This document shows, piece by piece, positions 44,645 to 54,897 of a stretch of 64,000 nucleotides of DNA (positions within the stretch are counted from its first letter, which is position 1; the number at the start of each line of letters is the position of its first letter). The stretch covers positions 62,001-126,000 of the forward strand of contig NZ_RKHQ01000001.1 of NCBI RefSeq assembly GCF_003751805.1, given 5' to 3'. The notes beneath the pieces are model-generated. The model made no database searches. It saw only the letters and a program-made list of their open reading frames with translations, and was not told where the DNA came from. The position numbers and the translations under genes are program-made. This DNA comes from Salana multivorans (GTDB lineage Bacteria > Actinomycetota > Actinomycetes > Actinomycetales > Beutenbergiaceae).

Positions 44645-46255
44645 TCAGCGCGGCTCGATGCCCGCCTGCATGAGCCCGAACACGAGCGCGTCGACGAGCG
44701 CCTCGTAGGACGCCTCGAGGATGTTCGGCCCGACGCCGACGGTGCTCCACACGCGCTCGCCGTCCGTCGTCTGGATGAGCACCCGCGTCACGGCGTCGGT
44801 GCCGTGCGAGGTGTCGAGCAGGCGGACGCGGAAGTCGACGAGGTCGAACGCCTCGATCTCGGGGTAGACCTCGCACAGCCCGAGGCGCAGGGCGTGGTCG
44901 AGCGCGTTGACCGGCCCGTTCCCCTCGCCCGTGCGGACGAACCGCTGGCCCCCGGCGTGGACCTTGACGGTCGCCTCGCTCTCCCCGTCGCCCCCGACCT
45001 TCTCGGAGTAGGCGACCGAGGCCCGCCAGGACTGCACGCGGAAGTAGGTCGGTCGCTGTCCGTCGAGCTCCTCGCGGAGCATGAGGGCGAACGAGGCATC
45101 GGCCGCGTCGTAGGTGTAGCCGGCGGCCTCGGCGTTCTTCACCCGGTCGACCACGCGGCCGAGCACCTCCGGGCGCCCCGTGAGGTCGATCCCCAGCTCG
45201 CGGCCCTTGAGCTCGACGGACGCCCGGCCGGCCATCTCCGAGACGAGCATCCGCATGTCGTTGCCGACGAGCGTCGGGTCGATGTGCTGGTAGAGGTCGG
45301 GGTCGACGCGGATCGCGCTCGCGTGCAGACCGGCCTTGTGCGCGAACGCGCTCGCGCCGATGTAGGGCTGGCGTCCGTACGGCGGGATGTTCGTGACCTC
45401 GCTGACCGCGTGCGCGATCCGGGTCGCCTCGGCGAGCCGGCCCTCGGGCAGGCAGGTCGCCCCGAGCTTGAGCTCGAGGTTCGCGACGATGGTGAGCAGG
45501 TCGGCGTTGCCCGTCCGCTCGCCGTAGCCGTTGATGCAGCCCTGCACCTGCCGGGCACCCGCGAGAACGGCCGCGATCGAGTTCGCGACGGCGCAGCCGG
45601 AGTCGTTGTGCGCGTGGATGCCGAGCGCACCGTCGCTGCGCAGCCGGACCGCAGAGACGATCTCGTGCACCCAGTCGGGCAGCATCCCGCCGTTGGTGTC
45701 GCACAGCACCACGTCGCTGGCCCCGGCCGCGAACGCCGTCTCCAGGGCGCTCAGCGCGTAGGCGGGGTCGAACCGGTAGCCGTCGAAGAAGTGCTCGGCG
45801 TCGACGATGACGCGTCGCCCCTCCCCCACGAGATACGCGACGGTGTCCGCGATCATCGCGAGGTTCTCCTCGCCGGTCGTGCGCAGGGCGCGCTCGACGT
45901 GCCGGATGTCGCTCTTGGCCACCAGCGTCACGACGTCGGCGGCGGAGTCCAGCAGCGCGCGGACCTGCACGTCGTCGTGCGCGCGGGCCCCGGGCTTGCG
46001 GGTCGAGCCGAACGCCGCGAACGTCGCGTGCTCGAACTCGATCTCCTTGTCGACGAGGCCGAAGAACTCGGTGTCCTTCGGGATCGCGCCCGGCCAGCCG
46101 CCCTCGATGACGCCGACGCCGAGCTCGTCCAGCAGCGGCGCGATGATCAGCTTGTCCGCGACCGTGAGGTTCATGCCCTCCTGCTGGGCGCCGTCGCGCA
46201 GGGTGGTGTCGTAGATCTCGACGGTCACGCCGTCGAGCGCGCGGGGCGTCGTCAT
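44645..46255 (-). CDS. cimA: Citramalate synthase (536 aa)
   Basis: Condenses pyruvate with acetyl-CoA to (R)-citramalate, the first step of the threonine-independent route to isoleucine; the family also includes 2-isopropylmalate synthase. The TIM barrel shows IYDTTLRDGAQQEGMNL with the metal/substrate residues, LCDTNGG, and GIHAHNDSGCAVANS with the metal-binding His pair. A linker and a C-terminal regulatory domain (about 405-530, LIQTTDGERVWSTVGVGPNILEAS) follow, as in Leu- or Ile-inhibited enzymes. The GVIEGGWPGA pattern and size match CimA more than LeuA. Start ATG 46255 follows an AGCAGGAC site. It is preceded by a Leu/Ile-coding leader peptide and an attenuator. Confidence 0.88.
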   Translation of the reverse strand: MTTPRALDGVTVEIYDTTLRDGAQQEGMNLTVADKLIIAPLLDELGVGVIEGGWPGAIPKDTEFFGLVDKEIEFEHATFAAFGSTRKPGARAHDDVQVRALLDSAADVVTLVAKSDIRHVERALRTTGEENLAMIADTVAYLVGEGRRVIVDAEHFFDGYRFDPAYALSALETAFAAGASDVVLCDTNGGMLPDWVHEIVSAVRLRSDGALGIHAHNDSGCAVANSIAAVLAGARQVQGCINGYGERTGNADLLTIVANLELKLGATCLPEGRLAEATRIAHAVSEVTNIPPYGRQPYIGASAFAHKAGLHASAIRVDPDLYQHIDPTLVGNDMRMLVSEMAGRASVELKGRELGIDLTGRPEVLGRVVDRVKNAEAAGYTYDAADASFALMLREELDGQRPTYFRVQSWRASVAYSEKVGGDGESEATVKVHAGGQRFVRTGEGNGPVNALDHALRLGLCEVYPEIEAFDLVDFRVRLLDTSHGTDAVTRVLIQTTDGERVWSTVGVGPNILEASYEALVDALVFGLMQAGIEPR

Positions 46256-46380
46256 CGTGTAGTCCTGCTCTCTGCTTGCATGCTCACGGATCGACCGGCT
46301 GGGGTGGTGCCGGTGGCCCGTCCGTGAGCTCATCGCCCGTCCGCTGTGCCGACTCGTGCGTCCAGCGGGGTCGTCCGGAC

Positions 46381-46408
46381 ACACAAAAGCCTCCCGGGTA
46401 GGGGAGGC
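46381..46408 (-). terminator. cimA leader attenuator terminator
   Basis: On the minus strand GCCTCCC and GGGAGGC form 7-bp arms around a 6-base loop, followed by TTTTGTGTGT. It lies 26 bases after the leader peptide stop and 134 bases before cimA. A competing hairpin (GCGTCCGG with CCGGACGC at 46410-46432) sits between. The arrangement is that of amino acid attenuators. Confidence 0.75.
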
Positions 46409-46433
46409 GGCGCGTCCGGGTGGGCCGGACGCG

Positions 46434-46463
46434 CTAGGTAATGAGAAGGGCCTTGTGTGCCAC
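46434..46463 (-). CDS. cimA leader peptide (9 aa, V-A-H-K-A-L-L-I-T)
   Basis: GTG to TAG open frame encoding VAHKALLIT (the GTG is read as Met), with two Leu and one Ile codon in a row, immediately upstream of the terminator hairpin. Ribosome stalling at LLI when Leu or Ile is short would allow the antiterminator form and read-through into cimA. There is no ribosome binding site; a CACACT hexamer ends 6 bases before GTG, so the leader looks leaderless. Its content suits an isoleucine-pathway gene. Confidence 0.7.
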   Translation of the reverse strand: MAHKALLIT

Positions 46464-46469
46464 GCATCC

Positions 46470-46475
46470 AGTGTG
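46470..46475 (-). promoter_or_regulatory. -10 element of the cimA leader
   Basis: CACACT on the minus strand, 6 bases from the leader GTG, keeps the A and final T of TANNNT. The same spacing is seen at the ilvB leader. Confidence 0.5.
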
Positions 46476-46522
46476 CCACAGGTCACGCCCCCGCCCCGCC
46501 CGGTTCGCGACGCCGTGTCTCC

Positions 46523-47548
46523 TCAGCCGGTGCCGGCGTCGAGCACCGCGAGCTCCTCGGCGCGCGTCAGGCCGGTCACGGCGGCTCCCGGAGCCGCCCG
46601 GAGCCACGCGGCGACGTCGGCGAGCGTCGCGGCGAGCGGGCGCGGCGCGAGCCCGGCGGCGATCGCCTCCTCACCCGGCCAGCGCTGCATGCCGGCGAGG
46701 TCCGCGTCGCCGCCGAGCCACATCGGGAGCGACCGGGGGCCGGCCCACGGCCGCACGTCGGCCGCGAGCAGCTCGGAGTCGCTGCGCCGGCGAGCATCGA
46801 GGCGGGTGCCGACGGCGTGCTCGAGGGCGGCGACGACGTCCGCCCACGCGGTCGGCGTGCCGACCGCGTCGAGCGTGCCCGTGCGCCGCGCCTCGGCCGA
46901 GTCGACGAGGAAGGTCGCCAGGTCGCGGGCGTCCAGGACCTGCGCGCGGGCCTCGGGATCGCCGGGGACGAGCAGGCGCGGGTCGCCGTCGGTGGCCGCG
47001 GCGAGGGCGTGGGCCGGCCAGTACGCCAGGCGCCCCGTCTCGTCGCCGGGTCCGCCGAGCAGACCCGGCCGCACGACGAGGGTGCCGGCCGGCTCGGCGC
47101 CGGGGCGCTCCCGCACGGCGTCCTCGGACGCCGCCTTCATCCCGCCGTACTCGGCCGCGGTGGCCGGCGGCGCGAGAGCGTCGGGCAGCGGCGCGTGACG
47201 CGGGGTGGCCGTGCCGGTCGGCGCGGAGTGGTCGGCGTAGACGCTCACGGAGGAGACGTAGGTCCAGTGCGCGCCGGGGGCGCTCGACGCGAGCGCGTCG
47301 AGCGCGTTCCGGACGGCCAGCGGCGTCGTGACGACGTCGATGACGATCTCCGGCGCGAGGTCGGCGAGCGCGGCCCGCACGTCGTCGGGAGCCGGGACGA
47401 GCCGGTCCCAGACGAGCGCGTCGACGCCGTCCGGCAGGCGACCGCCCCGGCCGCGCGTCACGCACGCGACCGAGTGGCCGCGCGCGAGCGCCTCCCGCGC
47501 GACGAGCGCGGACAGGTAGCCGGTCCCGCCGAGGACGAGCAGTCTCAC
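46523..47548 (-). CDS. NAD-dependent epimerase/dehydratase-like protein (341 aa)
   Basis: Extended short-chain-dehydrogenase-like protein. The N-terminal GGTGYLSALVAREAL gives the Rossmann dinucleotide loop, VTRGRGG and VWDR follow, and the YGGMKAASE segment carries the YxxxK-type catalytic pair (Tyr-x-x-x-Lys as YGGMK). No upstream Ser of the triad was positioned with confidence. Substrate is unknown; related proteins act on nucleotide sugars or as mRNA-binding factors in plants. GTG 47548 is preceded by GGAGGAGG. It sits between ilvE and the cimA leader on the same strand. Confidence 0.82.
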   Translation of the reverse strand: MRLLVLGGTGYLSALVAREALARGHSVACVTRGRGGRLPDGVDALVWDRLVPAPDDVRAALADLAPEIVIDVVTTPLAVRNALDALASSAPGAHWTYVSSVSVYADHSAPTGTATPRHAPLPDALAPPATAAEYGGMKAASEDAVRERPGAEPAGTLVVRPGLLGGPGDETGRLAYWPAHALAAATDGDPRLLVPGDPEARAQVLDARDLATFLVDSAEARRTGTLDAVGTPTAWADVVAALEHAVGTRLDARRRSDSELLAADVRPWAGPRSLPMWLGGDADLAGMQRWPGEEAIAAGLAPRPLAATLADVAAWLRAAPGAAVTGLTRAEELAVLDAGTG

Positions 47549-54856: not shown

Positions 54857-54897
54857 ACACACAAAAGCCCCTCGAGCCGATCGGCAGCTCCAGGGGC
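54857..54897 (-). terminator. ilvB leader attenuator terminator
   Basis: On the minus strand GCCCCT and AGGGGC pair, with inner GAG/CTC pairing and a GCCGATCGGC palindrome in the loop, followed by TTTTGTGTGT. It lies 21 bases after the leader stop and 55 bases before ilvB, and has the same T-run as the cimA attenuator. Confidence 0.75.

Follow-up and report, generated by a model that had tools for sequence, protein, structure and literature searches.

A putative isoleucine-sensing attenuator in the cimA leader of Salana multivorans, with a hairpin abutting the terminator

What is the function of a nine-codon reading frame and two adjoining hairpins placed ahead of the citramalate synthase gene cimA? 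cimA commits pyruvate and acetyl-CoA to isoleucine through a threonine-independent route. In the window (the whole 64,000-nucleotide stretch of DNA from Salana multivorans that was analysed), it occupies 44645..46255 on the minus strand, starting at 46255 and matching TIGR00977 (citramal_synth) at equivalog level with 614.8 bits against a cut-off of 450. The element formed by the frame and the hairpins lies 181 nt ahead of cimA. An epimerase-like gene on the same strand (46523-47548) ends ~60 nt before the leader ORF, and farther upstream, again on the strand of cimA, are ilvE and leuB and then a more distant ilvB.

All features of the leader are on the minus strand. A sequence-only reading of this DNA had claimed a 9-codon GTG frame, VAHKALLIT, with Leu-Leu-Ile upstream of cimA, and the frame was read directly at 46463-46434 as GTG GCA CAC AAG GCC CTT CTC ATT ACC TAG. 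Its codons CTT CTC ATT (Leu Leu Ile, 46440..46448) are the proposed sensing site. The G that ends the TAG stop codon begins the base of hairpin P1, a 10-bp stem-loop at 46434-46410 recognized by folding and by covariation of the helix in the family, which is the proposed antiterminator. One nucleotide past P1 stands the terminator stem-loop T (7 bp, 46408-46389; terminator scan and folding), followed by its U-tract, TTTT at 46388-46385 (terminator scan and sequence), which bears out the claim of a terminator with a T-run before cimA.

A consensus promoter scan of the cimA leader region found no full promoter. The -10-like hexamer CACACT (46470..46475) ends 6 nt before the GTG, and because this is the spacing of a -10 element, the transcript is predicted to be leaderless, starting at or next to the GTG. 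In 79/110 cimA loci the best TATAAT-like hexamer ended 6 or 7 nt upstream of the start codon, a count to be taken as a best fit, since only 4-10 nt upstream were scanned and the start codon and hexamer were picked jointly.

The region 46461-46384 folded with a z-score of -6.8, none of 200 dinucleotide shuffles being equally stable, and a terminator scan of 46200-46600 returned one site against a mean of 0.0 in shuffles. The pattern TAGCGCG..CGCGC..TTTT matched once genome-wide, at the cimA leader itself. Sequence comparison confirmed that the element is not a chance feature, because the ORF, TAGCGCG, P1, T and U-tract were all present in 24/24 family cimA loci with an intact 5' end (the own genome and 23 others, from 10 genera), where the stop codon lay 102-210 nt upstream of the start of the cimA match. 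The conservation of the 9-codon frame in related genomes, named beforehand as a check, was thereby borne out, and attenuation of cimA, as first proposed, is still the best reading of the sequence.

A covariance model built from the 24 family leaders matched 172/396 genomes of the order (E <= 1e-3), 189/394 of the class and 46/296 of the phylum (both E <= 1e-4); these counts ignore the downstream gene, which was assigned at the fetched loci, and some matches are not before cimA. Within the class, cimA was found in 305/388 genomes (E <= 1e-100), and 183/305 of these had a model match somewhere. Inspection by eye of 20 hand-picked class genomes with cimA and without a model match revealed seven clear leaders missed by the model (L177-L182, L186) and 13 genomes with none. 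Six of the 13 (L171-L176) are small genomes (1.2-1.9 Mb) of one family with cimA directly behind an ilvE-like gene, where the attenuator, judged by eye, was lost or never present. The cimA leader was present in G412, G529, G572, G648 and G703, all of one large-genome genus. The element is thus not particular to Salana multivorans: it is spread over the class, and versions that differ in codons and downstream targets extend through the phylum.

Two observations were made in passing. One genome (G630) carries two near-identical cimA leaders on two contigs (L135, L136) with one full cimA found, which suggests a recent cimA duplication or an assembly effect; because the contig of L136 breaks off early, this locus was assigned to cimA by eye. 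Among four leaderless-looking cimA loci of family f36 (L167-L170, no attenuator leader), three bear upstream GTTACnnnrTAAGGT and then GGCGGYGAACCCGTC, possibly another regulatory element.

The loci studied individually were hand-picked for spread and are non-random (60 from the order, 40 from the class, and two sets of 20). The 24 family, 60 order-level and 40 class-level loci make 124, of which 122 were parsed after exclusion of L137, which lacks a T-run of four, and of L160, which gave a single joined fold. The ribosome calculations used 120, as the ilvB loci L087 and L089, which by eye read VSRILVLT and a stop, had their frame misassigned by the script.

The codons before P1 point to the signal. 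Tandem Ile stood just before P1 in 96/110 parsed cimA leaders versus 73/2200 shuffles treated with the same frame choice. Ile occurred among the five codons before P1 in 110/110 cimA leaders, and since a single Ile was also found in 1128/2200 shuffles, only the tandem is telling. The residue preceding the last Ile was Ile in 96, Leu in 7, Val in 6 and Arg in 1, leaving 14/110 leaders without the tandem. The genome studied here belongs to this single-Ile minority, its LLI being accompanied by LVI and LLLI in a few close relatives. In 24/24 family leaders an Ile lies two codons before the stop. Isoleucine is therefore the best reading of the widest signal of cimA leaders, judged from codons, while leucine sensing in this genome would be a local feature at most, because LLI-type runs are common to only a few close relatives. 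Of the earlier proposal that shortage of Leu or Ile is sensed, the isoleucine part fits the codons better than the leucine part.

AUU made up 129/232 (56%) of the Ile codons among the five leader codons before P1, against 81/1947 (4%) in the coding pieces of cimA from 110 loci, nearly the same set; in seven genes of the window, ATT accounted for 0/110 Ile codons. Use of a rare codon where sensing would occur is compatible with a sensor, but AU-rich codons could also help to keep the stretch unpaired. The frame chosen was the one richest in I, L and V codons whose last five codons ahead of P1 contained no stop. The stop codon lay at the P1 base in 92/110 cimA leaders and beyond it, inside P1, in 18/110; L105, reading LIIRRRVGTAQG and then a stop, is an example of the latter. 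A recount from the tandem Ile without this frame rule (n=96) found no stop earlier than the P1 base; 78 leaders had their first stop there (-4 to +1) and 18 had it within P1. An arrest-peptide reading was considered and rejected, as the residue before the stop is variable.

P1 is supported as a helix by covariation. In an alignment of distinct sequences from 96 of the 110 cimA loci with P1 <= 36 nt (A2), 93.7% of cells were paired and both sides had changed in 168 cells, where shuffles gave a mean of 60; slid controls were 16.5-50.3% paired. Of 122 loci, 96 had no gap between P1 and T in the minimum-energy fold, 21 had a gap of 1 nt and 5 a gap of 2 nt. A helix of any strength within 2 nt of T also arose in 656/1100 GC-rich shuffles of the upstream sequence, so the unusual feature is the strength of P1 and not mere adjacency: a flush helix at -14 kcal/mol or better appeared in 97/1100 shuffles, and the real P1 (122 loci) has a median of -20.2 and a weakest value of -14.2 kcal/mol.

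Taken together, the cimA leader is explained, with a probability of roughly 0.8, as a ribosome-mediated transcription attenuator that senses isoleucine and in which P1 abuts T. Transcription would start at or next to the GTG and a ribosome would translate the 9-codon ORF. Given ample charged tRNA-Ile, the ribosome would reach the stop codon with its footprint over the whole 5' arm of P1, blocking P1, and T would form and stop transcription ahead of cimA. Under a shortage of charged tRNA-Ile, it would wait on the Ile codons a few nucleotides earlier and P1 would fold first. On general grounds of RNA polymerase geometry, T would have to close to the edge of the RNA-DNA hybrid in the exit channel, which should leave no room for an abutting stable 5' helix; a P1 flush with T would thus keep the bottom of T open in the channel, with read-through into cimA. 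The anatomy, its conservation, the Ile codons, the change of codons with the target gene, the covariation of P1 and the computed response of P1 to the ribosome are observed; translation of the ORF, regulation by isoleucine and its direction, and the steric step are what we infer.

The dependence of P1 on the ribosome was computed with a footprint that was assumed, from known toeprints, to extend 12 nt downstream of the first A-site base; PMC13236596 uses a 26-nt footprint centred on the codon. At the first regulatory codon a ribosome masked 2 nt of P1, at the last 5 and at the stop 11, leaving P1 a stability of -16.8, -6.4 and -0.7 kcal/mol, respectively (all medians, 120 loci). A terminating ribosome is thus predicted to remove P1 and a waiting one mostly to leave it. 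Computed in this way, P1 depends on the position of the ribosome and T does not. If starvation raises expression, as in tested precedents, P1 must oppose T. That it does so by position is argued because the probability of T, P(T), was unchanged by masks and two candidate pairings did not exceed shuffles; antitermination accordingly has to be argued on steric grounds, because T is predicted to be nearly equal in every state.

Besides the near-constant T, the 14/110 leaders that lack the tandem and the 13/20 inspected class genomes that lack a leader, two points weigh against the steric attenuator. In this genome and its nearest relatives, the one remaining Ile sits so close to P1 that a ribosome waiting there would already mask ~5 nt of it. 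The model also predicts read-through of an untranslated leader, because P1 would fold without a ribosome, which is the opposite of what is described for loss of the start codon in C. glutamicum ilvBNC, where, in the accessible text of PMC11857589, expression was cut by 80%.

The alternative that survives best, though unlikely, is classical attenuation, in which a terminator strand would pair, in ordinary antiterminator fashion, with part of P1, with the P1 loop or with the leader, and the pairing was missed or undervalued in the folds. It draws on C. glutamicum ilvBNC, whose adjacent antiterminator and terminator overlap at one trinucleotide according to the available portion of PMC11857589, and it was probed by masking, because a single fold cannot show overlap. 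P1 and T coexisted in one minimum-energy fold in 122/122 parsed loci, and mean P(T) was 0.95-0.98 under every mask (122 loci), falling below 0.5 in 1/122 loci with the Ile mask and 2/122 with the P1 arm masked. The hairpin that the sequence-only reading had called alternative is therefore no alternative pairing of the terminator, as both coexist in one fold and the computed T stays when P1 is masked. By eye, the P1 loop of L005 and L007 is able to pair with the 3' strand of the terminator, as classical attenuation would have it, but 171/200 shuffled loops paired with the T strand as strongly (105 loci). Leader pairing with the 5' strand of T, before the 3' strand exists, reached a mean probability of 0.22, exceeding 0.3 in 35/120 loci and amounting to 0.32 in the leader of the window; this likewise was not above shuffled leaders (0.22 vs 0.26, higher in 47/120) and dropped to 0.005 with a ribosome over the leader. 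Across the 105-122 loci examined, masking and the two candidate pairings yielded no conserved pairing that competes with T, and the shared strand with mutual exclusion by pairing that marks a classical trp-type attenuator was not found.

Two further pairings were considered separately. In the window, GCACACAAG at the leader start can pair with CUUUUGUGUG past the U-tract, a pairing that was rejected and is absent in relatives by eye. On inspection by eye, many family members could also pair the P1 3' arm with bases past the U-tract, but this pairing was set aside, being poor in several lineages and available only after read-through.

It is improbable that the polarity is the opposite, with P1 and T stacking and terminating together and an Ile-waiting ribosome opening the base of P1 and weakening termination. 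The coexistence of P1 and T in the computed solution fold would suit this reading, as would the median 5 nt of P1 covered from the last regulatory codon. Opening P1, however, leaves the computed T unchanged. The opposite polarity would also leave unexplained the stop-codon site, where a terminating ribosome removes P1 too, and those lineages whose ORF continues across the P1 arm to a stop codon within the loop.

Even less credence is due to binding of a protein or metabolite by P1 with the ORF incidental. The GCGCG/CGCGC base of P1 is nearly invariant, as a binding site might be, but the loop and upper stem vary, and what is conserved outside the helices resembles codons, for amino acids that differ by target gene. 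Rfam 15 gave no match at gathering score in the cimA leader region or in 12 related loci, and below that score only chance-level ones.

Scarcely credible at all is a terminator of the upstream gene beside a chance ORF, suggested by the nearby end of the epimerase-like gene, since the element accompanies cimA in 24/24 family loci though sequence farther upstream varies (by eye), codon identity tracks the downstream gene and AUU is strongly enriched.

Sister copies of the element precede other genes. The downstream gene was cimA in 55, ilvB in 4 and leuS in 1 of the order-level loci (n=60), and cimA in 33 (one by eye), ilvB in 5 and leuS in 2 of the class-level loci (n=40). Among these 12 ilvB and leuS loci, seven ilvB were confirmed by TIGR00118 over its cut-off and two leuS by TIGR00396, the identity of the remaining three (L129, L139, L140) coming from tblastn; the leuS locus L078 has a cut-short sequence and a TIGR00396 score below the cut-off. 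The phylum-level loci (n=20) comprised ilvB in 12 (tblastn), leuA in 2, cimA, leuB and isocitrate lyase in 1 each, and 3 without assignment. LLL precedes P1 in 3/3 leuS leaders and, outside the class, in 2/2 leuA leaders; III was found in one leuB and one cimA leader outside the class, and ilvB leaders carry mixed branched-chain codon runs. The copy just before the isocitrate lyase gene (NF011645, 772.7 bits) is a weak match (L205, E 8e-5) with an ORF that ends FVAIA and lacks a convincing codon run, and could be either a spurious match or a copy that has diverged. That all these form an Actinomycetota-wide modular class, in which a leader hairpin blocks termination by folding flush with the terminator base in the RNA polymerase exit channel while sharing no nucleotide with it, and in which a change of codon cassette, with both hairpins kept, retargets the device to cimA, leuB, leuA, leuS or ilvB, is a tentative proposal to which we would give somewhat less than even odds.

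At one locus outside the class (L202), leuB, followed by an ilvE relative, bears the same element with three Ile codons; this suggests that LeuB there serves the citramalate route to isoleucine. For the ilvB of the window a separate leader peptide, MFTALLVVVPPVGD (54963-54919, minus strand), is predicted on a leaderless transcript: TACAGT ends 6 nt ahead of the ATG, and the end of a terminator-like hairpin is near 54866. This leader contains Leu and Val codons and no Ile, and the helix preceding its terminator is 8 nt away; since flush hairpins are not seen there, the flush design is not universal even within this genome.

If the cimA leader is an Ile-sensing attenuator, cimA transcription in actinobacteria would be under direct end-product control, and a natural isoleucine sensor with interchangeable codons would be at hand. 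The unexpected part is that the position of the ribosome is predicted to toggle P1, yet no conserved pairing that competes with T was found, so that P1 may act by steric antitermination. If P1 acts by abutment, the leader would offer a clean test of the room beside a terminator hairpin in the RNA polymerase exit channel, and attenuators could exist that searches for mutually exclusive pairing miss.

Having an ORF with end-product codons and an intrinsic terminator between ORF and gene, the cimA leader resembles leader-peptide attenuators in the broad sense. The supposition that attenuation of cimA is little described agrees with the literature on actinobacterial leader attenuators available to us, mostly without subscription papers, in which no description of a cimA leader attenuator was found; a term search of the accessible text of PMC8079986, PMC13236596 and PMC2965389 gave no mention of cimA. 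In S. lividans, leaderless leader peptides before ilvBHC and leuS are among eight listed in the available part of PMC8079986, a list that does not include cimA. The LEU element of leuA is marked by a pseudoknot that pairs with the Shine-Dalgarno box; leuA leaders are said in PMC8079986 to lack a strong intrinsic terminator, whereas the cimA leader has one.

The ilvB, trp and leuS attenuators of Seliverstov et al. (2005, PMC1262725) likewise combine a short ORF of end-product codons with an intrinsic terminator in the same phylum. As far as the accessible text goes, leuS and ilvB, which are also targets of the sister copies, are among its genes and cimA is not, and it reports conserved structures in no other amino acid pathway. 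Complementary triples are common to the antiterminator and the terminator of its trp leaders, whereas P1 and T share none as folded. For M. tuberculosis ilvB1NC, the available portion of PMC13236596 describes a closely similar use of the ribosome, which masks the antiterminator from the stop codon and frees it from the LVVI codons. Codon changes were tested there, and with the LVVI codons replaced by alanine codons, expression stayed low and did not vary with the dose of inhibitor. It differs from the cimA leader in gene and signal, and in that its antiterminator and terminator are described as mutually exclusive.

Nearest in design, judged from the accessible parts of PMC11857589 and PMC10272879, is C. 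glutamicum ilvBNC, which, together with ilvB-II, resembles the cimA leader in its leaderless ORF, branched-chain codons and side-by-side antiterminator and terminator. The two ilvBNC hairpins compete over a GCC trinucleotide, after a third hairpin has acted, in contrast to the cimA leader, where nothing is shared as folded. The ORF of ilvB-II spans most of P1, while that of most cimA leaders ends at the P1 base; in the window it lies 5' of P1, with P1 and T 1 nt apart, an arrangement distinct from the ilvB-II motif and from the three-hairpin attenuator of C. glutamicum, with their uORF within P1 and hairpins that overlap at a boundary trinucleotide.
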